From: a virus
Strand: one strand, 5' to 3'
Virus record (IMG/VR): IMGVR_UViG_3300025010_000199
Location: 1 to 28,346 of that record
Length of the DNA stretch: 28,346 nucleotides
Part shown: one piece after another, positions 1,785 to 17,603 of the stretch
Layout of the letters: every line of letters begins with the position of its first letter
Position numbering within the stretch: position 1 is the first letter of the stretch
The notes under the pieces: generated by a model
The model's input: the letters and a program-made list of their open reading frames with translations, nothing else
What the model was told of the DNA's origin: nothing
Databases searched by the model: none
Position numbers and translations under genes: made by a program

Positions 1785-2765
1785 TTACTTTGTCGTTATT
1801 TGTCTGCTGCCCACAGTATCAGCTTCAGCGTGTATACCAATCTGAGTTATGAAAGTATTATCGGCATACTCGGTGCCACCCGTGGCAGCAATACGCTTGA
1901 CCGCAATCTTTACCTGAGTGCCGATGGTCAGCCCTGTCATATCGACTGATCCTAGATCAAGTTTAAAGTGATTGAGTGCTGCCGTAGTATCTGGAATGGT
2001 TAATTCAGCCGTCACGCTGGTTTCTGTCCATACAGTGTCAATCCCGGCGTATGCAAAATATACGGTGAACTTGGCGAACCTATCAGCACCAGACGTGTTC
2101 GCAGTCTTGTTGGCAACATGCATGTGAACATGGGCGGCTGTACCTTCCTTCCACCAATGCGCCATTTCATTCGCACCAAGGGCAATATGATCGTCCACTG
2201 TGAAGGAGTATTCTGAGGTGTTTGTAGTGAATGCTTCCCATGTAGGGAAGTTTGCTGCCGGGACTTTACCGGTACTAATCTGAAATTGAATGTCATCCCA
2301 TACAGTGGCATCACCGTTAAATTTAAGTGTGCCATCCGACTCTATTTCAGTATTGTTACCGGCGTTGTCACCTATCTGAGCCGTACCGACCATAGTAAAC
2401 GGTCCGGTGGCTGATGGGGCGTCTACTGGTAGATAGTCTGTATTTGCTGTTGCTGCTGTTACGTCTGTCCCATCACCTTTAAGAATGCCTGTTGCTGCTG
2501 TCTTGTCTTTTGTACTTGCTGGCATTGCATGACGATGATCTTCGCGGGAATATGTGGTGAGTGTGCCTACTACAGCAGCGTTACCATACGCTTCATCAGT
2601 TACTGTAGTAGCTGCTTGGGGTATCTTATTGTTCACGCTTTCAATATTGGCGTCGTTGGCGCTTATCAGATTCTGAAACCATATTCGCCACACTGACGAG
2701 GTTACAACCGTCTTCAGGTCGCCTTCCACAAGCGGTGCAACTATTGGTGGTGGCTGGATAATCAT
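1785..2765 (-). CDS. Tail-fibre-like / receptor-binding protein
   Basis: The likely protein has 326 residues starting at ATG 2765. That start overlaps the upstream stop as TAATG and follows a GGAAG site. A TTG codon five triplets earlier is a less likely start. The N-terminus is Pro-rich and is followed by a short helical, neck-like part. The middle (YSREDHRHAMPAS, TGILKGDGTDVTAATANTDY) is the low-complexity shaft sequence seen in many phage fibres. The C-terminal half has a Trp-Lys-Glu-Gly and His-x-His-x-His pattern (MAHWWKEGTAAHVHMHVAN) inside a beta-rich domain, as in C-terminal domains of environmental phage tail proteins. It directly follows the head-binding tail protein, so it probably builds the distal tail. 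The precise receptor is unknown. Confidence 0.68.
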   Translation of the reverse strand: MIIQPPPIVAPLVEGDLKTVVTSSVWRIWFQNLISANDANIESVNNKIPQAATTVTDEAYGNAAVVGTLTTYSREDHRHAMPASTKDKTAATGILKGDGTDVTAATANTDYLPVDAPSATGPFTMVGTAQIGDNAGNNTEIESDGTLKFNGDATVWDDIQFQISTGKVPAANFPTWEAFTTNTSEYSFTVDDHIALGANEMAHWWKEGTAAHVHMHVANKTANTSGADRFAKFTVYFAYAGIDTVWTETSVTAELTIPDTTAALNHFKLDLGSVDMTGLTIGTQVKIAVKRIAATGGTEYADNTFITQIGIHAEADTVGSRQITTK

Positions 2766-3304
2766 TACGCTTTCTTCCAATCGTTGAGTGCTGCGTGAGG
2801 TACTAGACGTACCGACTCGTTCTGTGTAGTCAAACTGTAATCTGCCTGACCGAGTATTGTACCAGTGGTCGGTGTAATCACGACTTCATTGGCACTGGTG
2901 TCGGTTTTAATAAACAACATCTCTTCAGCTGCTGGATCGTTTGCAGATAATATCGTTTCGTTCACAGTGGCGAACGACGCGTCGGCGAACGACGTGCTAC
3001 TTGTGCCGCTACCAGACCCACCGACGTTATCCTGAGACTCCACCAGCACGCCTGCCGCGTCGTAAATGGCAATGCTGTAACCGGCATCCAGCCAGATAGA
3101 CGCCTTACCACTGCCGTCGAGTATAACCGGATTGGTGTTTGCCACGGTGCCGGTGCTGTCGGTGTATGTCGCTTTGGGGTATGACTGTCCTGGACCGGCA
3201 ACAGTTCCTGGCTGAGCTGTATAGACTTTACCGCCGACAAGCGGTGCACCTGTGGGGTTGAAGACGGAGAAATTAATCATCGGTGCGAGGAAGAGGATGG
3301 GCAT
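2765..3304 (-). CDS. P22-tailspike-like head-binding domain protein
   Basis: This is a 179-residue protein. Its first 90 residues match the head-binding domain of P22-type tailspikes: a short strand with PMINFSVFNPTGAPLVGGKV, then a Tyr-x-Ala-Gln-Pro-Gly-Thr loop, then NTNPVILDGSGKASIWLDAG and YSIAIYDAAGVLVES. In P22 this domain attaches the spike to the tail hub. Here no beta-helix follows in the same chain. The rest is a Ser/Gly linker and a small beta-domain with TGTILGQADYSLTTQNESVR. The protein therefore looks like a free adaptor onto which the fibre-like protein and perhaps the beta-helix protein dock. The start ATG 3304 has GGAG six bases upstream, overlapping the previous stop. I see nothing broken; the short length looks like true modularity. 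Confidence 0.75.
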   Translation of the reverse strand: MPILFLAPMINFSVFNPTGAPLVGGKVYTAQPGTVAGPGQSYPKATYTDSTGTVANTNPVILDGSGKASIWLDAGYSIAIYDAAGVLVESQDNVGGSGSGTSSTSFADASFATVNETILSANDPAAEEMLFIKTDTSANEVVITPTTGTILGQADYSLTTQNESVRLVPHAALNDWKKA

Positions 3305-3677: not shown

Positions 3678-5329
3678 TAGAACTCTATCCCGATTTTACT
3701 CATGGCGTCGATTCCTTTAGTCGCTTTCTCCATCACATCGCCTTCGTACTTAACGTCCTCACCTTGTACCATCTCGGCGTACTTAACGGCCATCTCACAG
3801 GCTTCTTCAGCAGTCTTACCGAATCCGATAGCACCGCCGAAAAATCCGCCGTTTCCGTTTGGCACTATATAGTATTTTCCGTCTTTAATGCAATGGTTTT
3901 TCAGCCGAATATATCGTGCCGCTTCAGCAGGAAATTCAATCGGCAACCAGTGATCATCTTCCAACCAACCGCTTGTCAGAATTATCTCGGCGCAATACGT
4001 GTGATGCGGTGTGAGTACCGGCATTCTGCCATTTGCCAAGTCCCATAACGCCTGTGCATAGCAGTGCATCTCATAAACCTCCACCATCAGCTCACCGGGT
4101 GGGCTAGGAACTCGCATTGTCGGGTCGATGTAATGACCCTCCGTCTTATTGACGCACCGCACCTCAGTCGAATAGTGGCCTGCCAGACCGAGTTTTGCCA
4201 GTATCGGTTCCATCGCTTCGTTCACATGTTGGAGGATTTCGGGCTGTACGGGAAACACCTTACCGAGATATCCGGCATCCTTCATCTCTAAGCCACAGAG
4301 TGAATTATCAGGCACCTTACCGGCAAGACTCAGGGTATCAGTTCCTATCTCTCCTACCGAGTCAATACGATGCTGCACAATGAATACCTGCGAATCGGTA
4401 TGTCGTCCTAATCTGCATTCCAAGTCGTGCAACCAGACTGACGACAGGAAGCTACCGAGCCATTTTTTCGTTTCCATCAGACCACGATGATGGGATATTT
4501 TAATAAAACACTCGCCAGACGGCTTGTCTGCGAGGTATTTACTCAGTGCCTTGGTGCCGACCAGTCGTTCAGTCTTGGCGACCGGCAGACCAGCAGCTTT
4601 CAGTTCCTGCTGGAAGAACCACTTATCCAGCTCCAAACGGTCGGCATCACCTGACCCGCAGACTTTAAAGCCGTCAGCACGAAGCTGTGACTGCATACCG
4701 CTGAAACCGACATCAGGGAAGAAGAATAAGGTTTTAAGCGGGTCGGGTTTATCGTCCAGAAACTGTTTGAACGTCGCTCTACCTTCGTCCTCCACGCTCC
4801 ATGAACTATAAATCCGTTCGACGCCGGGTAGTCCGGTACCGATACAGTCGCGGTCAGTATTCGGGTATGCTTCGATATTCGGCACGAGTAGCAGAACACG
4901 CTCAAACGATTCGGTTAGCTTCTCGGCTATGGATATATTCAACCCATGATCGATCATCACAAGAGTAATCTGACTGAGTGGCGTTTCCTCGGTGACGTCC
5001 TGTGGCGTGAGTCCCTGCTTTCGTTCCTCCGCCGTTATACGCATAACAATACCCTTTGCAGCCGCGTAGATATGCGAGTGCAGACCTTCAGCAGGAACCT
5101 TACGATGAACTTTCGCGTAAATGTCAGGTTCAAACCGTCTGAGCCACGACATCGCCTGGGAGCGGGACAACCACATGCGCTCGTTGTCGGATGGTATAAA
5201 GCCGTGAGCGTTATCATTACGGACGTGTAGGCCGTGACGAGTCTTGATATGGTCGTGGTTTTCGTCGATAGCCCCAGGATAAATTCGAGTACCTACTCGA
5301 ACCGCTGGTTTAAGGTGTGCTGCTGGCAT
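3677..5329 (-). CDS. ATP-grasp-fold enzyme with extra N-terminal phage domain
   Basis: This is a 550-residue protein. Residues about 10-75 (VGTRIYPGAIDENHDHI, then HGFIPSDNERMWLSRSQAM) form a separate small domain with a His-x-x-Ile, Gly-Phe, Arg-x-x-Ala pattern. I have seen this pattern in stand-alone phage and plasmid proteins of unknown role. Residues about 120-440 look like an ATP-grasp ligase. They include a pre-ATP-grasp-like segment, DKWFFQQELKAAGLPV (235-250), a candidate nucleotide-binding lysine in CFIKIS (Lys277), and the metal and phosphate site STEVRC...YIDPTMR (Glu389, Asp402, Arg406). ATP-grasp enzymes join an acyl-phosphate to an amine or similar nucleophile; the substrates here are unknown. 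ATG 5329 lies 20 bases inside the ejection-protein gene with AGGAG seven bases upstream. GARS-like (PurD-type) folds are the nearest I can suggest, but the catalytic assignment is inferred. Confidence 0.62.
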   Translation of the reverse strand: MPAAHLKPAVRVGTRIYPGAIDENHDHIKTRHGLHVRNDNAHGFIPSDNERMWLSRSQAMSWLRRFEPDIYAKVHRKVPAEGLHSHIYAAAKGIVMRITAEERKQGLTPQDVTEETPLSQITLVMIDHGLNISIAEKLTESFERVLLLVPNIEAYPNTDRDCIGTGLPGVERIYSSWSVEDEGRATFKQFLDDKPDPLKTLFFFPDVGFSGMQSQLRADGFKVCGSGDADRLELDKWFFQQELKAAGLPVAKTERLVGTKALSKYLADKPSGECFIKISHHRGLMETKKWLGSFLSSVWLHDLECRLGRHTDSQVFIVQHRIDSVGEIGTDTLSLAGKVPDNSLCGLEMKDAGYLGKVFPVQPEILQHVNEAMEPILAKLGLAGHYSTEVRCVNKTEGHYIDPTMRVPSPPGELMVEVYEMHCYAQALWDLANGRMPVLTPHHTYCAEIILTSGWLEDDHWLPIEFPAEAARYIRLKNHCIKDGKYYIVPNGNGGFFGGAIGFGKTAEEACEMAVKYAEMVQGEDVKYEGDVMEKATKGIDAMSKIGIEF

Positions 5330-7934
5330 CAGACTGCTCCTGTGGTGGTTGAGTAGCTGTTACGGCAAGCTGACGGATAAACGGTGTGAGATATTTCTGA
5401 GCGGCAGCACCTACATTGGCAGGTTTCGCTTTGGCTACTTTCATGAGTGCTTCACGAGCGTCCTTATTGAATACTGCCTCACGTAACAGCGCATCAATCT
5501 GTGCTCTCTGTACTGCTAACCTGCCTTTGAACAGACTTCCTATAAGACCCTCTGTTGCGCTATAAGTCCAACCGTGACCACTCATAACGGAGAGTAGCTG
5601 GACTAATTTCTTGCCGACACCCACTGCTGTGTCGCCGGTTGCTTTTTCCATAGTCGTCGAACCACCAACTGCTGAAACATTTTTATTGCGACCAATAATA
5701 CGCAGCGCCTCGGCGTAATCCTTTAGACCTTGCATCGCCTCAGAGTTCAAGCCGTAGGTTTCTCTCATCGCTGGTGCCATTTTACGCATTAACTTGTACG
5801 CCTGAATGGCTGTCATTTCAGGCGTACCAAGAGCGTCAAACTTGCCAGTTGCTTCCAGAGCATTTTCGATAGAACGCGGAATCTGGTCTTTGATCACCTG
5901 TTTGACTGAACTGGTAAGACCTAATTCATGCAACACATCAGCATTTTGTCTTAGGAACGCCCTGGCTCCTGGTATATTCATAATACCCGTGTTGGTATCT
6001 ACAATACCGGGTGAACTAATCATCTTTTCGATTACAGCAGGCATTGCTTGTCTGGCAGCTTTCTGTCTACCAACCAACATACGCTCGGGTAAATTCATCA
6101 CATCGCCTGTAACCGGGTCAAGAGTACCTTTAGGTGGTATAAGTGACCGGTACAGGTCTTTAGCACCTGTTCTCGTAGTCAAGAAGCGGGGCGCAACGCT
6201 TTCATTAATCACGCGCCTTCCGCTGGCTTGATTACCTTGTGCGAGAACGTCCTGCACTGCCCCACGGTAATATTTCTTAAACACTTCTTCATGACTGTAT
6301 TTCTTAGCTGCTGAGTAGGCTTTTGCCACGTCGTCTGCTGGTTCGGCAGCGTCAAGCTGTTGCTGGAGGGCAGTGTGCCGTGTGGTTAGACCTTCCAGTT
6401 TGGGGTCAGCGACACCCCCACCCACCATCGGCACCGGTTCGTCAGGATAGAATTTCTTAAACTCAGTGGTCAGCTTCTCCAGATGCGCTTTATCCGTCAT
6501 GCCTGTAGACGGCATGAATGACCCTTGTTTCGCTTGTACGGCTTTCATCAGAGCCATTTTATCCGGTGTGCCGCCGCTTGCCTGCTGTGCTGCAATCTGC
6601 TCGTCGATCATAGCTATGTCGGCCTTCAGCCGTGACGGTATGATAACCTTACCGCCTGACACCATTATGTCGCCACGATCTGCTGCCTCACCAATGGCGT
6701 TAAAGTCATCTCTCACTGCTTTGCGTAGGGTTTCCAAGTGACCTGCTGTCTCGGCGTCGTTGGCCCCATGCGCTTTTTTAATAGCCTTACCCAATGACCG
6801 TTCGACGCTCTGTAAGCCTTGTGTGTTATTATTCTTACTTAGTTCTTCGTTGATATAATCCTGCATACTGTCTACAACTTTACGAGAGTCAGCAGGCATT
6901 GCTTTACCTCTTACTTCTCGCCCAACACGTGAGAGATTTTCAGCAGGTATCGGGTAGTCAGGCACTTTCGCCCATACTGCTTTTTGAGCAGCCTTAGCCG
7001 CTGTTTTCTGATCGCTGATTGCCTTGACGATGTTTGACCCGGTTATGTCTCGTGACTGTACTGACGGTAACGGTGCACCAGGACCTAACTTATTTTTAAG
7101 GTTACTTGTGGCGTCTTTTCGTATCACGGCGTCATTGTCGATCAGCAATTCACCAAATGACGGTTCGTTACCGACTGAAACATCTTTCGACGCTCTTGCT
7201 TGCTCAAATTTACGAGCGTTGAAGTTATCGGTTGTCTGACCGGGTGTCGGCTGTGCTTTTGTGCCAATCCGATTCATAACTGCTTCGGTTTCCGCTTGTC
7301 TGAGTTTGTTCTTTTCAGCAGACTTTGCACTTGGTGTATACACTTGGTCGTATTCTTCTGCCGCCCTAAGTCGAGTACGCTTGGCACGTAGCGGCATACC
7401 TTTTCGACTTGCATCAACCAGACCATTTACCACACGACCAGCAACCTTACCGGCAATCTGTCCACCCATCTCTATTTCGGCACCGGTCTTCAACTTATTG
7501 ACTACATTGCCGACTTCCTCACCGGCTGTGCGTGGTCGGTATTTCGGATTGGATAATTCACCGGGTATAAACGGCTGACGGACCTGAGTGGCTGACGGAC
7601 CTTCTATTATGTCGGTTGCCTGGCTACCCATACCGTAACCGAGTGCTGAACCAGCGACAGTACCGGCAGCCGTACCGAGTACAGGCACCGCGCTACCACC
7701 GGCTGCACCGATAATGCCACCGGCAACCATACCAGCACCTTCGAGTATCGGTCGGGCGTATCTAGCGACTGTCTTGCGGGAGGGTAACGCTTCCTTGACT
7801 CGCTGCATGACACCTTTGGGCGGTAGAACACGTTTGCCGCGTGAATGCGACGACATGGTGTTGAGCACCGGTTCGTCAGGCTCCCATCCGGCAATTGCTG
7901 GTTTATCAGGTTCCCAACCAGGGATAGTAGCCAC
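5310..7934 (-). CDS. Large internal virion / DNA-ejection protein (P22 gp16 position)
   Basis: This is an 874-residue protein with a GTG start at 7934, set by a perfect AGGAGG site six bases upstream that overlaps the previous stop. The N-terminus carries a short duplicated motif (GWEPDKP and GWEPDEP, residues 6-22). A Gly/Ala-rich hydrophobic stretch follows at residues 65-108 (AGGIIGAAGGSAVPVLGTAA and on), which could insert into a membrane. The remaining 750 residues are mostly helical and rich in Ala, Lys and Gln, with no recognisable enzyme domain. This layout, the size and the position as last of three internal-protein genes match the ejection proteins of P22-like phages, which leave the head with the DNA and form a channel across the envelope. 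The gp16 correspondence rests on position and layout, not on visible sequence identity. Confidence 0.66.
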   Translation of the reverse strand: MATIPGWEPDKPAIAGWEPDEPVLNTMSSHSRGKRVLPPKGVMQRVKEALPSRKTVARYARPILEGAGMVAGGIIGAAGGSAVPVLGTAAGTVAGSALGYGMGSQATDIIEGPSATQVRQPFIPGELSNPKYRPRTAGEEVGNVVNKLKTGAEIEMGGQIAGKVAGRVVNGLVDASRKGMPLRAKRTRLRAAEEYDQVYTPSAKSAEKNKLRQAETEAVMNRIGTKAQPTPGQTTDNFNARKFEQARASKDVSVGNEPSFGELLIDNDAVIRKDATSNLKNKLGPGAPLPSVQSRDITGSNIVKAISDQKTAAKAAQKAVWAKVPDYPIPAENLSRVGREVRGKAMPADSRKVVDSMQDYINEELSKNNNTQGLQSVERSLGKAIKKAHGANDAETAGHLETLRKAVRDDFNAIGEAADRGDIMVSGGKVIIPSRLKADIAMIDEQIAAQQASGGTPDKMALMKAVQAKQGSFMPSTGMTDKAHLEKLTTEFKKFYPDEPVPMVGGGVADPKLEGLTTRHTALQQQLDAAEPADDVAKAYSAAKKYSHEEVFKKYYRGAVQDVLAQGNQASGRRVINESVAPRFLTTRTGAKDLYRSLIPPKGTLDPVTGDVMNLPERMLVGRQKAARQAMPAVIEKMISSPGIVDTNTGIMNIPGARAFLRQNADVLHELGLTSSVKQVIKDQIPRSIENALEATGKFDALGTPEMTAIQAYKLMRKMAPAMRETYGLNSEAMQGLKDYAEALRIIGRNKNVSAVGGSTTMEKATGDTAVGVGKKLVQLLSVMSGHGWTYSATEGLIGSLFKGRLAVQRAQIDALLREAVFNKDAREALMKVAKAKPANVGAAAQKYLTPFIRQLAVTATQPPQEQSDASSTP

Positions 7935-9767
7935 TTATAGCCTCCTGCCCGTTGCCTGTGAGAAGAACGATTTGCCACCGTCAGTTGTGTAAGCCGGTTC
8001 ACCGTGATACTTACCGGTCTGTGCGCCTGCCGGTATTTTACTGCCTGTGGGTTTGGGTGCAGGTGACGCCTGTGGTGCAGCAACACCCTTTCCGAGATGC
8101 TGCCTCATCTCCTCATACACTTCTTTTTGCGAATTGAGAGAGTCTTTCATCAAACCACGGAACTGCGTAAACTTCTGATCGATCATTGCAGGGTTATCTT
8201 TGAGTACGCTGATCAGGTCGTTTGTGTTCTTCATGGCCGAATCTGTAGGAGCCGCGCCGGTCGTCTGCCGTGTGACCACACGGGTATATTCGATCATTGT
8301 CTCGTAAGCTACTGCCTCGGCGGTTCCTGGTGCTGGCGCGCCCATACCCTTTTTCATCCGATTGACTACACCGTTTAACATTGGCACAGTGCCATTACCG
8401 AGCTGCTTGAATAATCCGTGTAGCCGGGTAAGGTTCTTCTGTGCTTGTAGTTCGCTGCCTTCCAGATTCGCTATCAGGCCTTTCTGCTTGCTCATTGCTG
8501 CTACATTGGCTTTCACGTCGGCTCCGGCAGCAAATAGCTCCGGCAGCGTCATACCGGCGTCCCTGGCTATTTCAGACACGCGGGCGAACGCCTTTTCTCT
8601 AACGTTATCGCCACCCTTACTGCGACCCATGCCAGGAGGTAATTTACCGTAAAATGCTAGATACTGAGCGGCGAACTCTACAGCGTCACTCGGTTTGCCC
8701 TTATTCAGAGCACCCATCACCTTACCTTCAGACGGTATTCCTGCTGACGATCCGCCACCGTTTTTCACACTTGGCTTGACATCTCGTCCGTGGTAAGGCT
8801 GACCGTCTACGAACTTTTCGCCTCTTTTATTGGTGAAGATCATCTTACCGCCGGGTGTAATCATACCTGATCGGGTAAGCTCGTTGAGTTTCGCGTCTTC
8901 TTTGGTGGCCGTCAGTTTTTGTTCCTCTAACGCCTTAAATGTATCAGCCATACTGTACGCCAACAACGGACTAAACCGTTTAGGCGCTGTTTCGGCAGCT
9001 TTTGCAAGTCCCGGTATCTGACCCATATCCTGGATCATCTGCGAGTACATCGGCTGAAGAGTCTCGATTGCCTGCTGTTCCGGTATGCCTGACGCCACCA
9101 TTGCCTCGTATTTCTGAGTCAACGGGGTCTGTGCTCTGGCAATTGGTTCAATCATGGAAGTAAGCTCTAACTGCTGTTCTTTGTTGAGTTTACCCTGTTC
9201 CACGGCAACTTTCAGCATACCGAGCTGTTCTGTAGACCGCTTGATTTTTATGCCGTCGCTCTGTGCCATTGCACCAGTCATAAGTCTGCTGTACTCGGCG
9301 TCGTCAATCTTGCCACTCTCACGGAGGCCTTTATACGACTGCATTTGTGTCTGAAGCATCTGCTCGTCGGTGGGTGGTTGTGGTTGCGCGGCAGGCGTTC
9401 CCATAGGCTGAGCGCCTGCTGGAGGTGTAGTTGCCATATTAGCAACCTGACCGTACATTCCGCCAGGGACAGGCGGTGGTACGAGGTTATTCTGTATGGG
9501 TGCTGGCTGTGGTTGGGTGGGTGCTGGTTGTGGTTGAGTGGCAACGGGCTGCTGCGGCTGCTGTTGAACGAGTAGATTACGTCCCACGTCACTGTCGATC
9601 ATTTTATTGACTTCCAGCATACGCAAAGCGTCTTGATTTTTCATATACGCCAGACGATTTTGAGTCGCATAGACAGGCATTTCTGAGGCAAAAATCTGCC
9701 TGCGTTCACCTTCCTGCTGACCGGCAACTCCACCCTGAAGTACGTTCCAAGAAGTCATTTCAGACAT
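7935..9767 (-). CDS. Internal virion / DNA-ejection protein (P22 gp20 position)
   Basis: This is a 610-residue protein starting at ATG 9767, with GAGGT seven bases upstream. The first 65 residues are helical and charged. Residues about 67-110 are a Pro/Gln-rich linker with a near-perfect repeat (QPQPAP twice). The rest is Gln-, Lys- and Met-rich helix with coiled-coil character and no catalytic motif that I can see. The C-terminus ends in a Pro/Ala linker and a short PAYTTDGGKSFFSQATGRR tail. It is the middle one of three consecutive internal-protein genes, and its stop codon is immediately followed by the GTG of the next one. In P22 the corresponding slot is gp20. The assignment is by gene order and composition. 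Confidence 0.58.
   Translation of the reverse strand: MSEMTSWNVLQGGVAGQQEGERRQIFASEMPVYATQNRLAYMKNQDALRMLEVNKMIDSDVGRNLLVQQQPQQPVATQPQPAPTQPQPAPIQNNLVPPPVPGGMYGQVANMATTPPAGAQPMGTPAAQPQPPTDEQMLQTQMQSYKGLRESGKIDDAEYSRLMTGAMAQSDGIKIKRSTEQLGMLKVAVEQGKLNKEQQLELTSMIEPIARAQTPLTQKYEAMVASGIPEQQAIETLQPMYSQMIQDMGQIPGLAKAAETAPKRFSPLLAYSMADTFKALEEQKLTATKEDAKLNELTRSGMITPGGKMIFTNKRGEKFVDGQPYHGRDVKPSVKNGGGSSAGIPSEGKVMGALNKGKPSDAVEFAAQYLAFYGKLPPGMGRSKGGDNVREKAFARVSEIARDAGMTLPELFAAGADVKANVAAMSKQKGLIANLEGSELQAQKNLTRLHGLFKQLGNGTVPMLNGVVNRMKKGMGAPAPGTAEAVAYETMIEYTRVVTRQTTGAAPTDSAMKNTNDLISVLKDNPAMIDQKFTQFRGLMKDSLNSQKEVYEEMRQHLGKGVAAPQASPAPKPTGSKIPAGAQTGKYHGEPAYTTDGGKSFFSQATGRRL
9498..9539 (-). repeat. Two 21-bp tandem copies encoding a Pro/Gln linker
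   Basis: Two adjacent 21-base units (9498-9518 and 9519-9539) differ at only two positions. Read on the minus strand they encode the repeated TQPQPAP-type linker near residues 75-90 of the internal virion protein. The unit length is a multiple of three, so copy-number change would keep the frame. Confidence 0.8.
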
Positions 9768-10674: not shown

Positions 10675-11136
10675 TCACAACTCCTTGTGCCACTGTAACC
10701 CGGTTGCTGTGTAACCCTGTTTTTCCAGCAGACGACCTGTTGCCCCGGCTTTTAATCGTGTTCCCATTGCCGAAAGAATTGCCCCCTTTTCTCTCAGGTG
10801 TTTATCCGCAAGTGCTACCAGTTCCGACATTATCTTTATCCGGCGAAATGGACTCAGCTCAGGGTCCGTATGGAGAATTATCTCCTGTGCGACCGCAATT
10901 TTACGCTGATAAAATGTGGTTCGCAATATAATTGCGTAAATCACTCCAATTATTTTACCATGCGCCTGTGTGACTATCAGTACACTGTCTGGTCCGTTAC
11001 AGGCAGCAAGCATGTCGGCGGCATGTTCTTCCTCGAATATGCCCACCAGTGGGCCGAATGCTATTTCATCGTAATACGCCCGACTGACGGCAGCTATCCG
11101 TGGTATGTCTGTCTCGCGGGCGAGTCTGGTTATCAT
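10675..11136 (-). CDS. GNAT-family N-acetyltransferase
   Basis: This 153-residue protein has the size of a single GNAT domain. It begins ITRLARETDIPRIAAVSRAY, the usual beta1-alpha1 of the family. It has a central strand pair (VLIVTQAHGKIIGVIYAI), then ILHTDPELSPFRRIKIMSEL. The last piece is where motif A would hold the acetyl-CoA pyrophosphate loop, here degenerate (SPFRRIKI in place of the usual R/QxxGxG/A). It ends in GATGRLLEKQGYTATGLQWHKEL, the typical FYxxxGF-like closing segment. GNAT enzymes move an acetyl group from acetyl-CoA to an amine; the acceptor here is unknown. The ATG overlaps the radical SAM stop by four bases (ATGA), so the two are almost certainly co-translated and may act on the same molecule. 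Confidence 0.78.
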   Translation of the reverse strand: MITRLARETDIPRIAAVSRAYYDEIAFGPLVGIFEEEHAADMLAACNGPDSVLIVTQAHGKIIGVIYAIILRTTFYQRKIAVAQEIILHTDPELSPFRRIKIMSELVALADKHLREKGAILSAMGTRLKAGATGRLLEKQGYTATGLQWHKEL

Positions 11137-12068
11137 ATCGACTCATTAACTATCATCGCTTTCACGAAATCCATTATGCGCCCATCCTTCGTCGTGTAGG
11201 TCGGTGGCATGTCTACGTCGTTCAAGTCAATATTGTCGATGTTATACCACTTGATTATTGCATATCGTACACCGTTAAACGTCAGACGGTAATACGATAT
11301 CTTGCCTGACGGTGCAAGTACCAGCTCACCTGGATGATTGCCGAACCACTTGATGACATCCGATACGAAGATGTCGGCGTTATTGCGCTCGTTCCACACT
11401 TTAGATGCTATTTTGATTCGCACCACACTGAACAACTCGTGATAATCTTCAGCAAGGGTGACGACAGCAGGCAGTTCTTCAAGACTGTCAATCACGAAGA
11501 AAATAGTGTCGAACTTGACGCGGTGTGACACTATATTAGCGATTACTGCCGGAAACCAGCGAGCTTCCTTATGATACGACAAACCGATCTGTACGACGCC
11601 GGTATGGTCGGTAAGGCGGTTAAGATACTCTCTGAATCCTAACCCGCTGTCTTCCAGACCGTAACCGTTGGTCAGCATGTACGCAGGGCCGATCTGCTGC
11701 ACTCGATCAATTATCGCGAATATTTCAGGATGCAGCGTCGGCTCGCCGCCGGTCAGGATATACGGTCCAGGTGCCTGACGGCAATTTTCCAGTATGGTTT
11801 CCACCGGTATGTCTGACTGACCTCTCTCATAAAAGCAGTATTTGCAGTTAATGTTGCATCGGGTCGTCACATCGACCAGGTGTCCAGCGTAAATCTGGTC
11901 AGGGTTTTGTTCACAGTGCTGGAAAAACGACGAGTCGGACTCCAGCAGACCGACAGTCATGCCGTGGTCAGGACAACTCTTTGCAATTATCGCCTGCCCT
12001 CCATCGCTACAAACGACCGCCTGAACCTCCTTGTAACAGGTGTTACATAGACTTCTGGTCACTCTCAT
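11133..12068 (-). CDS. Radical SAM enzyme with N-terminal zinc-ribbon-like Cys cluster
   Basis: This is a 311-residue protein. Residues 8-35 carry Cys8-x2-Cys11 and later Cys20 and Cys32-Pro-Asp-His35-Gly, a zinc-knuckle-like start. The same kind of N-terminus is seen in the MJ0619-like group of radical SAM proteins. Residues 71-78 are the 4Fe-4S motif CNINCKYC (CxxxCxxC), followed by Phe-Tyr. ILTGGEPTLHPEI (104-116) is the SAM-binding GGE motif. The C-terminal half has alternating strands and helices as expected for the partial TIM barrel and lacks a SPASM-type cluster of cysteines. Radical SAM enzymes cleave SAM to make a 5'-deoxyadenosyl radical; the target cannot be read from the sequence. 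The start ATG 12068 overlaps the tail-hub stop (TAATG) and has GGGGAG upstream. Its slot between tail hub and ejection proteins is unusual. Confidence 0.85.
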   Translation of the reverse strand: MRVTRSLCNTCYKEVQAVVCSDGGQAIIAKSCPDHGMTVGLLESDSSFFQHCEQNPDQIYAGHLVDVTTRCNINCKYCFYERGQSDIPVETILENCRQAPGPYILTGGEPTLHPEIFAIIDRVQQIGPAYMLTNGYGLEDSGLGFREYLNRLTDHTGVVQIGLSYHKEARWFPAVIANIVSHRVKFDTIFFVIDSLEELPAVVTLAEDYHELFSVVRIKIASKVWNERNNADIFVSDVIKWFGNHPGELVLAPSGKISYYRLTFNGVRYAIIKWYNIDNIDLNDVDMPPTYTTKDGRIMDFVKAMIVNESI

Positions 12069-16370: not shown

Positions 16371-17603
16371 TCAGACCTCCACGTAGGCTATTGTTCCGCA
16401 GGTTTTAATTCTAGCGACCTCGTACATTTCGTTAAACGCCTGCATGACACCGGGCCAAGAAGCCGTGTAGTCATGAACAGCAACAATTTTACGGGCTTTG
16501 GGTGCCCATGCTTCCAGGTCGGCTTTACAGCCTTCGTAGGTATGCTCGGCGTCGATAAACACCATGTCGAATTGCTCGCCGGTGATGCCGTTACCAATTT
16601 CAGCAGACTGACCTCTGACGACCATCAGATTATCATAAGCAGCAGTATTCCGACGGAAGGTGTCGTACACATCTTCGGTTGCGGCGATATCTTCGAGAAT
16701 ACCATTACTTGACGGGTCGTGACCTAACCAGTTATCCACTGCTGTCACGTAGCCATTGCATCCTTCTAGCAGTGCCGTGGTGCTTCTACCCTTCCAGCTT
16801 CCTACCTCCGCGATGCTGTTCATACGCTGAGCTGTCTCGTACAGCCAAGCCAGTTCTTCCTCAGACATGAAACCGTCAATCTGTAACGCTTTCATTATTG
16901 CTTCCGGTCGTGGTCGAGTCAGAAACGTGTGGAAGTTACCTTTATAGTCTTTACTGCCTGAATGAGTGAACGTAATATTCGGCAGGCACCAGAGTTGACC
17001 GCCCGTCTTTTCCCATAGGTGGCAGAACCCGTAGTCATCATAAAACATGCGACCGTCGATCATGAACTCACCGAAAAAATTGTATGTCGGCTGGTTGCTG
17101 ATCCCGTCATTATAAAGCAGTTCGGGGTACGCTTCCTGTAATGTGATGATTGCTTCACGGCTGATTTTCATGAATCCTGTAGCTAACCCCTCGGCCAGCA
17201 GGACACCGTTATTAAAGATTACACCGCCGTCATCACCCTTCTTCAGACGAACAGCATACTCTTCAGAATCTTGTTTTTTCGGGTACGCACCACCTATCAC
17301 ATCCTCCTTGCTGATAATCAGGTCGTGAAAGATACCGGGCGCAAAACCAATATCCGAGTCGATAAAAACCATGTGACTACAGTCAGACGCCATGAATTTT
17401 CTCACCAGATTGTTACGCGCCATACTGATGTAAGGCAGGCCGACTTCGTAGCAGAAACTGAACGGGATATTACAGGCGAGCATAACCTGTAAGGCGTTCA
17501 TTAATGCTTGATGACAATTACAGAAAATCTTTTTGTCAATGCACGGCACCGCAACAAAGATTTTCAGACCGGTGTACTGCTCATTTAGTGGTTGTTCGCT
17601 CAT
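16371..17603 (-). CDS. Fused glycosyltransferase (GT-A-like) and SAM methyltransferase
   Basis: This is a 410-residue two-domain protein. Residues about 12-230 look like a GT-A glycosyltransferase: an IFVAVPCID start, ARNNLVRKFMASDCSHMVFI and then Asp-Ser-Asp at 82-84 (the DxD motif that holds the metal and sugar nucleotide), followed by GGAYPKK and a late FTHSGS. Residues about 232-410 look like a class I methyltransferase of the Methyltransf_24 type: IAEVGSWKGRST (264-275, SAM motif I), VTAVDNW (acidic end of strand two), then FDMVFIDAEHTYEGCKADLE and IVAVHDYT. It could add a sugar and methylate it or its acceptor, modifying a surface glycan or a virion part. ATG 17603 follows GAGG at five bases. 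It is the first large gene after the terminator and promoter at 17784-17843. The motifs look intact in both domains. Confidence 0.82.
   Translation of the reverse strand: MSEQPLNEQYTGLKIFVAVPCIDKKIFCNCHQALMNALQVMLACNIPFSFCYEVGLPYISMARNNLVRKFMASDCSHMVFIDSDIGFAPGIFHDLIISKEDVIGGAYPKKQDSEEYAVRLKKGDDGGVIFNNGVLLAEGLATGFMKISREAIITLQEAYPELLYNDGISNQPTYNFFGEFMIDGRMFYDDYGFCHLWEKTGGQLWCLPNITFTHSGSKDYKGNFHTFLTRPRPEAIMKALQIDGFMSEEELAWLYETAQRMNSIAEVGSWKGRSTTALLEGCNGYVTAVDNWLGHDPSSNGILEDIAATEDVYDTFRRNTAAYDNLMVVRGQSAEIGNGITGEQFDMVFIDAEHTYEGCKADLEAWAPKARKIVAVHDYTASWPGVMQAFNEMYEVARIKTCGTIAYVEV

Follow-up and report, generated by a model that had tools for sequence, protein, structure and literature searches.

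The late operon of a P22-type podovirus carries a radical SAM enzyme (rSAM) and a GNAT-fold protein between the gene for the gp10 tail hub and that for gp7, the first ejection protein. The two occur together in every full-length member of a phage family, and they occupy a hypervariable slot which, in phages with related hubs, is filled by other enzymes. We tentatively read the pair as a late-expressed cassette that modifies a virion or ejected protein, its putative substrate. While radical SAM and GNAT proteins are already known as structure-function classes, the rSAM family restricted to phages, the GNAT that constantly accompanies it in the main clade and the enzyme slot itself appear to be undescribed: a limited literature search returned no relevant report of rSAM with GNAT in phage tail operons or in this slot, and nothing relevant on a gp14 acetyltransferase.

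Genomic context

The window (the whole 28,346-nucleotide stretch analysed here) is the late operon of this phage, read from the minus strand in the order terminase, portal, scaffold, P22-type coat, gp4-position gene, gp10, rSAM, GNAT and gp7, followed by two more ejection-type genes (Table 1). Both enzymes are intact and lie between tail hub and ejection genes, as the preliminary description had it, and the 'fused' pair of that description proved to be two separate open reading frames that overlap at an ATGA. The packing is tight on either side, with one base (12068) shared by the gp10 stop and the rSAM start and 1 nt between the GNAT stop and the gp7 start. By eye, rSAM and gp7, unlike GNAT, are preceded by a purine-rich stretch resembling a Shine-Dalgarno sequence, which suggests translational coupling of GNAT.

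The same phage is represented in IMG/VR by contig 3300025000_000115 (58,553 bp), both ends of which align to stretches of the window that overlap by 161 bp (L009 and L011 alignments); searches could therefore cover the whole circular genome of ~58.4 kb. In this genome the window rSAM is the only match to the Radical_SAM family, and the P22-type needle family phrog_1219 was not found, in line with the earlier remark that the slot lacks a recognizable needle. A 331-aa protein encoded at 1785-2780 resembles, in its C-terminal part, a protein that in the related record L153 sits directly after gp10, i.e. in the needle position; thus needle-position material may have moved downstream in the window phage. 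The whole phage genome contains no tRNA genes. A thymidylate synthase of phrog_85, possibly of the ThyX type, lies beside a DNA polymerase gene (L010 14041-14685).

Table 1. Coordinates of the features discussed, in the window (first 12 rows) and in related records (L numbers).
Feature	Location	Strand	Basis or remark
gp10-type tail hub / head closure Hc3, 798 aa	12068..14464	-	phrog_578, 1.4e-85; upstream slot border
Radical SAM enzyme (rSAM), 311 aa	11133..12068	-	founder of phage-specific family
N-terminal rubredoxin-like / zinc-ribbon domain, residues 2-39	11952..12065	-	PF23545; C8-X2-C11-X20-C32-X2-H35
CX3CX2C [4Fe-4S]/SAM motif CNINCKYC, residues 71-78	11835..11858	-	invariant cysteines
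GGEPT motif, residues 107-111	11736..11750	-	sequence motif
Family-specific C-terminal region, residues 274-302	11163..11249	-	WY...N.DL.(D/E)(I/V)...P...G...V
ATGA stop/start overlap, rSAM/GNAT	11133..11136	-	4 nt; same overlap in L148, L150, L153
GNAT-fold protein, 153 aa	10675..11136	-	phrog_1249, 2.2e-12; model; degenerate acetyl-CoA loop
gp7-type DNA ejection protein, 297 aa	9780..10673	-	phrog_598, 4e-25; downstream slot border
Second ejection-type protein (gp20 position)	7935..9767	-	position only
Third ejection-type protein (gp16 position)	5310..7934	-	position; homologue in same place in L148, L153, L155, L158, L159
331-aa protein, C-terminal ~190 aa like L153 post-gp10 protein	1785..2780	-	BLASTP E 4e-26, 32% identity
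B12-binding rSAM, about 370 aa	L149 3039-4121; L150 8847-10004; L153 8898-10010; L155 8773-9879		no curated cut-off reached
Divergent rubredoxin-type rSAM clade, about 345 aa, CNMxCSWC	L232 8373-9425; L247 7680-8711		directly before gp7
SET-domain or cupin-SET-like slot proteins	L226 3081-3890; L229 8148-8987; L064 2284-3132; L005 9747-10622		candidate lysine methyltransferases
Recurring ~150-aa protein	L056 4939-5388; L061 7126-7575; L074 6556-7017; L091 6400-6843; L092 6186-6644		just before gp7

A compact rubredoxin-type radical SAM enzyme

The rSAM is a member of the radical SAM superfamily by its cluster motif, GGE motif and core fold. Pfam places Zn_ribbon_HMPTM (PF23545) over residues 2-39 (E 5.6e-11; above the cut-off here and in relatives) and Radical_SAM (PF04055) over residues 67-163 (E 5.4e-9; 36.9 bits against a cut-off of 29.5), and the structural model is confident (pLDDT 88, pTM 0.87). 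The CX3CX2C and GGE motifs and the N-terminal Cys/His knuckle previously recognized in the window protein are thus all present, and they are a property of the family: the catalytic motifs are intact in every one of 12 members, from which we predict catalysis, and the N-terminal metal motif CX2CX19-20CX2H occurs in 12/12 (X19 in three). The only invariant cysteines of the 12 are C8, C11 and C32 of the rubredoxin site and C71, C75 and C78 of the SAM cluster. Towards the C-terminus, W274, N279, P289, G296 and V302 are also invariant.

By both fold and profile, the closest characterized protein is the tetraether lipid synthase Tes (GDGT-MAS, MJ0619; PDB 7TOL/7TOM), which is the nearest solved structure to the model (Z 28.2, 2.8 A over 304 of 311 residues, the second-best match being MoaA with Z 13.4) and the top hit in a profile search of the PDB (4.7e-30). 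The domain order, a rubredoxin-type domain followed by a radical SAM core, is the same in both. The mononuclear rubredoxin-type iron site of GDGT-MAS is C9X2C12X20C33X2H36 (PMC9433317), and the ligand spacing CX2CX20CX2H of the window rSAM is identical to it. On the other hand, the phage enzyme is much smaller (311 aa vs about 500 aa), the linker that bears the N-terminal auxiliary cluster motif of GDGT-MAS (C73/C77/C80) is absent from the phage family, the C-terminal cluster of GDGT-MAS has no conserved cysteine counterpart, and the phage C-terminal region is conserved in a manner of its own. The two auxiliary [4Fe-4S] clusters that, beside the SAM cluster, characterize Tes are therefore not represented, and scores against the Tes equivalog NF045702 (cut-off 450 bits) are only 60.8 for the window protein and 64.7 and 78.1 for two relatives. 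Given the missing linker and cysteines, the phage rSAM should not share the cluster-bound carbon chemistry of Tes. TrsS-type radical SAM (seleno)proteins (NF045646) are just as good a distant match by profile (1e-16 to 6e-23), with the rSAM far below their curated cut-off of 490 bits, and indeed none of the NCBIfam equivalog cut-offs was reached by the window rSAM or the two relatives. Taken together, its domain architecture and profile matches place the rSAM with the rubredoxin-domain radical SAM enzymes of the Tes/TrsS superfamily.

The preliminary description had also raised the idea of a small peptide-modifying pathway with a small substrate gene. The radical SAM core fold is indeed shared with RiPP maturases such as SuiB, SkfB, PqqE and the sactisynthases (Z 10-13). 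Searches against Pfam and NCBIfam found neither an RRE nor a SPASM/twitch domain, all NCBIfam maturase cut-offs were missed, and the genes of the module abut or overlap, leaving no room for a precursor open reading frame. The RiPP maturase reading is accordingly disfavoured.

The GNAT-fold partner

The window GNAT is recognized only weakly by Pfam (0.013, below the cut-off), matches the phage acetyltransferase family phrog_1249, and is modelled as a confident GNAT fold (pLDDT 88.4; Z up to 17.3 against solved acetyltransferases). Within phrog_1249 it is a distant member, 29% identical to the protein of Aeromonas phage MJG, whose gene adjoins the portal gene, not the gp7 slot, in a genome that has no rSAM. 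In place of the canonical (R/Q)xxGx(G/A) loop that holds the acetyl-CoA pyrophosphate, the window GNAT has RRIKIM, and its closest relative, in L148, has a similarly degenerate RRINLM; several other members have kept RGxG-like loops. The window protein would work like, or derive from, a GNAT; its predicted catalysis is uncertain and it may be non-catalytic.

The long-known P22 protein gp14 (DUF2824) and T7 gp13 occupy the same position before the first ejection gene and are about 140-150 aa long. The window GNAT matches them in both respects, lying immediately before gp7 and having about 150 aa. Homology to P22 gp14 or T7 gp13 was not significant by BLAST, an alignment of the GNAT profile with P22 gp14 by hhalign gave a probability of 1%, the gp14 family PF11039 has no match in the complete genome, phrog_651 was not matched either, and P22 gp14 is not a recognized GNAT in Pfam. 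The equivalence of the GNAT with gp14 is thus one of position and size only.

Conservation and distribution of the pair

Used as a single query against IMG/VR and against genomes, the window rSAM retrieved only itself. The family emerged only from scans based on alignments of this protein, at first with distant relatives carried on plasmids (A2) and later with the earliest relatives recovered from phages (A3). It comprises full-length members in 12 distinct phage records, 32-51% identical to the window protein, with two further contigs being near-copies of one of these records. No full-length member was found among 50,697 records of isolate phages, nor did any full-length relative turn up in the genomes of 84,980 species of bacteria and archaea, which were scanned with short patterns and thus not exhaustively.

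In all 12 records a GNAT lies beside the rSAM, once with an intervening gene. The rSAM comes first in eight records (window, L148, L149, L150, L152, L153, L155, L158) and the GNAT in three (L154, L156, L159); in L151 a glycosyltransferase-like open reading frame (so assigned by eye, with no Pfam match) separates rSAM and GNAT. Most rSAM/GNAT junctions overlap by 4 to 29 nt. The association exceeds chance: of 61 further gp10-to-gp7 slots that lack this rSAM, three hold a GNAT of the same type, or eight if short divergent GNAT-like open reading frames are counted (Fisher tests, 2.5e-11 and 6.9e-9, respectively). The divergences of rSAM and GNAT are also correlated (Mantel r 0.43, p 0.013), a result that shared phage ancestry alone could explain. 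The pair is always inside the tail/ejection operon, beside a gp7-type gene wherever this is readable or beside other ejection-type genes.

Four members (L149, L150, L153, L155) carry a B12-binding radical SAM gene directly upstream of the rSAM, an unusual cobalamin enzyme to be phage-encoded. A second B12-binding type, of about 425 aa, was seen in L154 (1335-2621) and L159 (1366-2640), after a glycosyltransferase-like gene and upstream of gp4.

An exchangeable slot before the ejection genes

The space between gp10 and gp7 is hypervariable among the relatives, in which gp7-type homologues mark about 60 related loci. A scan with four gp10 queries (window, L148, L155, L150) retrieved phages whose hubs are close relatives of these (about 45-70% identity). 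Among these, the slot holds rSAM with GNAT in the window and L148; a B12-rSAM, rSAM and GNAT in L155; a divergent rubredoxin-type rSAM without GNAT in L232 and L247; GNAT alone in L227 and L244; and a SET domain behind a cupin-like half (cupin by reading) in L226 and L229-L231. In more distant relatives, motif-based counts gave cupin-like, SET, GNAT or unrecognized proteins, while in P22 itself the slot holds the needle gp26 and gp14. The SET domain scores above its Pfam cut-off in L226, L229 and L064; the SET-domain and cupin-SET-like proteins are candidate phage-encoded lysine methyltransferases next to ejection genes. A protein of about 150 aa, probably helical, recurs just before gp7 in five further records (Table 1).

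Phages that keep the same tail genes and lack the pair had been named beforehand as what would speak against a role in virion modification. Such phages do exist (L226, L227, L229-L231, L244), and it follows that the tail itself can do without the pair; their slot, however, holds other enzymes, and being of a protein-modifying type these fit modification of virion or ejected proteins. The divergent rSAMs of L232 and L247, which have no GNAT, indicate that the rSAM fold can work without GNAT.

The rSAM tree (internal support in this part of it partly low) groups L155 with L149, L150, L153 and L158, not with the window and L148, whereas the gp10 of L155 is closest to those of the window and L148, a conflict such as cassette exchange would give. 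On the gp10 phylogeny, which is weak owing to long branches and uneven sampling, the rSAM-bearing phages require one parsimony change, and close gp10 relatives without rSAM exist. The place next to the ejection genes is therefore an exchangeable enzyme slot, and the presence of an enzyme in it looks like a recurrent feature.

Possible roles of the cassette

Three observations make modification of a virion or ejected protein the likeliest role: the pair lies in a late structural operon, it is permanently adjacent to ejection genes, and it is replaced in relatives by enzymes of a protein-modifying type. In such a scheme the rSAM would reductively cleave SAM and take hydrogen from its substrate, with the rubredoxin-type domain handing on electrons, and the GNAT-fold partner would acylate the product or help present the substrate. 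The substrate would be a protein expressed simultaneously from this operon, with ejection and tail proteins as the likeliest candidates, and would then be packaged or ejected in modified form. A possible parallel is Elp3, a tRNA modifier in which the same two catalytic folds, radical SAM and GNAT, work together. In Elp3 both reside in one polypeptide with a Cys motif that differs from that of the phage rSAM; here there are two genes in variable order. Against modification of virion proteins, the slot may be no more than a site at which unrelated late genes accumulate, and the window GNAT has lost its canonical acetyl-CoA loop. An inspection of the gp7 proteins by eye showed no obvious common modified motif, and the hypothetical target proteins are poorly homologous across the 12 phages. 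Several phages also have glycosyltransferase-like genes near the module, which makes a sugar pathway conceivable.

This last alternative, in which rSAM, GNAT and, where present, B12-rSAM and glycosyltransferase-like genes together build or decorate a small molecule or glycan, such as a (nucleotide-)sugar for the virion or host surface, is unlikely but the best of the competing explanations. It draws on the glycosyltransferase-like reading frame inserted in L151, on the frequency of GNATs and B12-rSAMs in sugar and antibiotic pathways, and on the B12-rSAM, whose only sequence matches in the PDB include an enzyme of the apramycin pathway. It also draws on a 410-aa protein (16371-17603, minus strand) whose gene separates the coat region from the gp4-position gene; its N-terminal half is weakly glycosyltransferase-like (Anp1) and its C-terminal domain is Methyltransf_24. 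Its relatives lie near the same place in L148, L154, L155 and L159, and it is possibly a second tailoring gene. Yet the pair does not consistently have glycosyltransferase-like neighbours, a complete sugar pathway was not observed, and among the proteins that fill the slot in other phages are those with a SET domain, whose typical targets are proteins.

We consider it somewhat less probable still that the enzymes are directed at the host, altering its metabolism, membrane lipids or a host protein, and are merely located in the late operon. Phages often carry such genes, and GDGT-MAS, the closest characterized relative, acts on lipids. But the position in the late structural operon is fixed across divergent phages, the pattern scan of prokaryote genomes found no host homologue, and the C-terminal cluster that takes part in the GDGT-MAS mechanism has no conserved cysteine counterpart here. 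A viperin-type antiviral or counter-defence enzyme was rejected, as the rSAM scores 30.9 against the curated 180-bit cut-off of NF038283.

It is doubtful, too, that the GNAT is a non-catalytic assembly factor like P22 gp14 or T7 gp13, with the rSAM an incidental neighbour or acting on the GNAT. The shared position directly before the first ejection gene, the near-identical size (153 vs 151 aa) and the degenerate loop would suit such a factor, in contrast to the negative hhalign and PF11039 results, the retention of RGxG-like loops in most members, and a GNAT that can lie on either side of the rSAM and is missing from related phages. Finally, phage radical SAM enzymes and acetyltransferases act in thymidine hypermodification, and this phage has the same pair of enzyme classes and the phrog_85 thymidylate synthase, but DNA modification is very improbable because the ThyA-type dUMP hydroxymethylase (PF00303) and the 5-hmdU kinase helical domain (PF18723) were each found in 0/12 records, of which eight span 39 kb or more.

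Returning to modification of virion or ejected proteins, a bolder and more speculative extension is that P22-type podoviruses have a programmable tailoring slot, whose interchangeable modules (rubredoxin-type rSAM with GNAT and an optional B12 radical SAM; SET or cupin-SET; GNAT alone) each install a different modification on ejected or tail proteins, the rSAM being a new phage-only class without auxiliary clusters. We know of no described radical SAM modification of a virus particle. If the cassette does act on ejection proteins, phages would be adjusting, by chemical means, proteins that pass through the bacterial envelope, and relatives would swap the choice of chemistry like a cartridge. 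The slot may also help explain P22 gp14. As to the enzyme itself, the Tes/TrsS superfamily, of which few reactions are known, gains a viral branch of compact proteins (about 310 residues) that is confidently modelled, lacks conserved cysteines for auxiliary clusters and offers a tractable target for new radical chemistry.

A minor observation concerns the tail hub that borders the slot. The window gp10 is unusually long (798 aa vs about 470-580), the extra length coming from repeat-like insertions with similarity to other virion proteins (phrog_19630, 701, 460), and among the relatives only L232 has a gp10 of similar length (800 aa).
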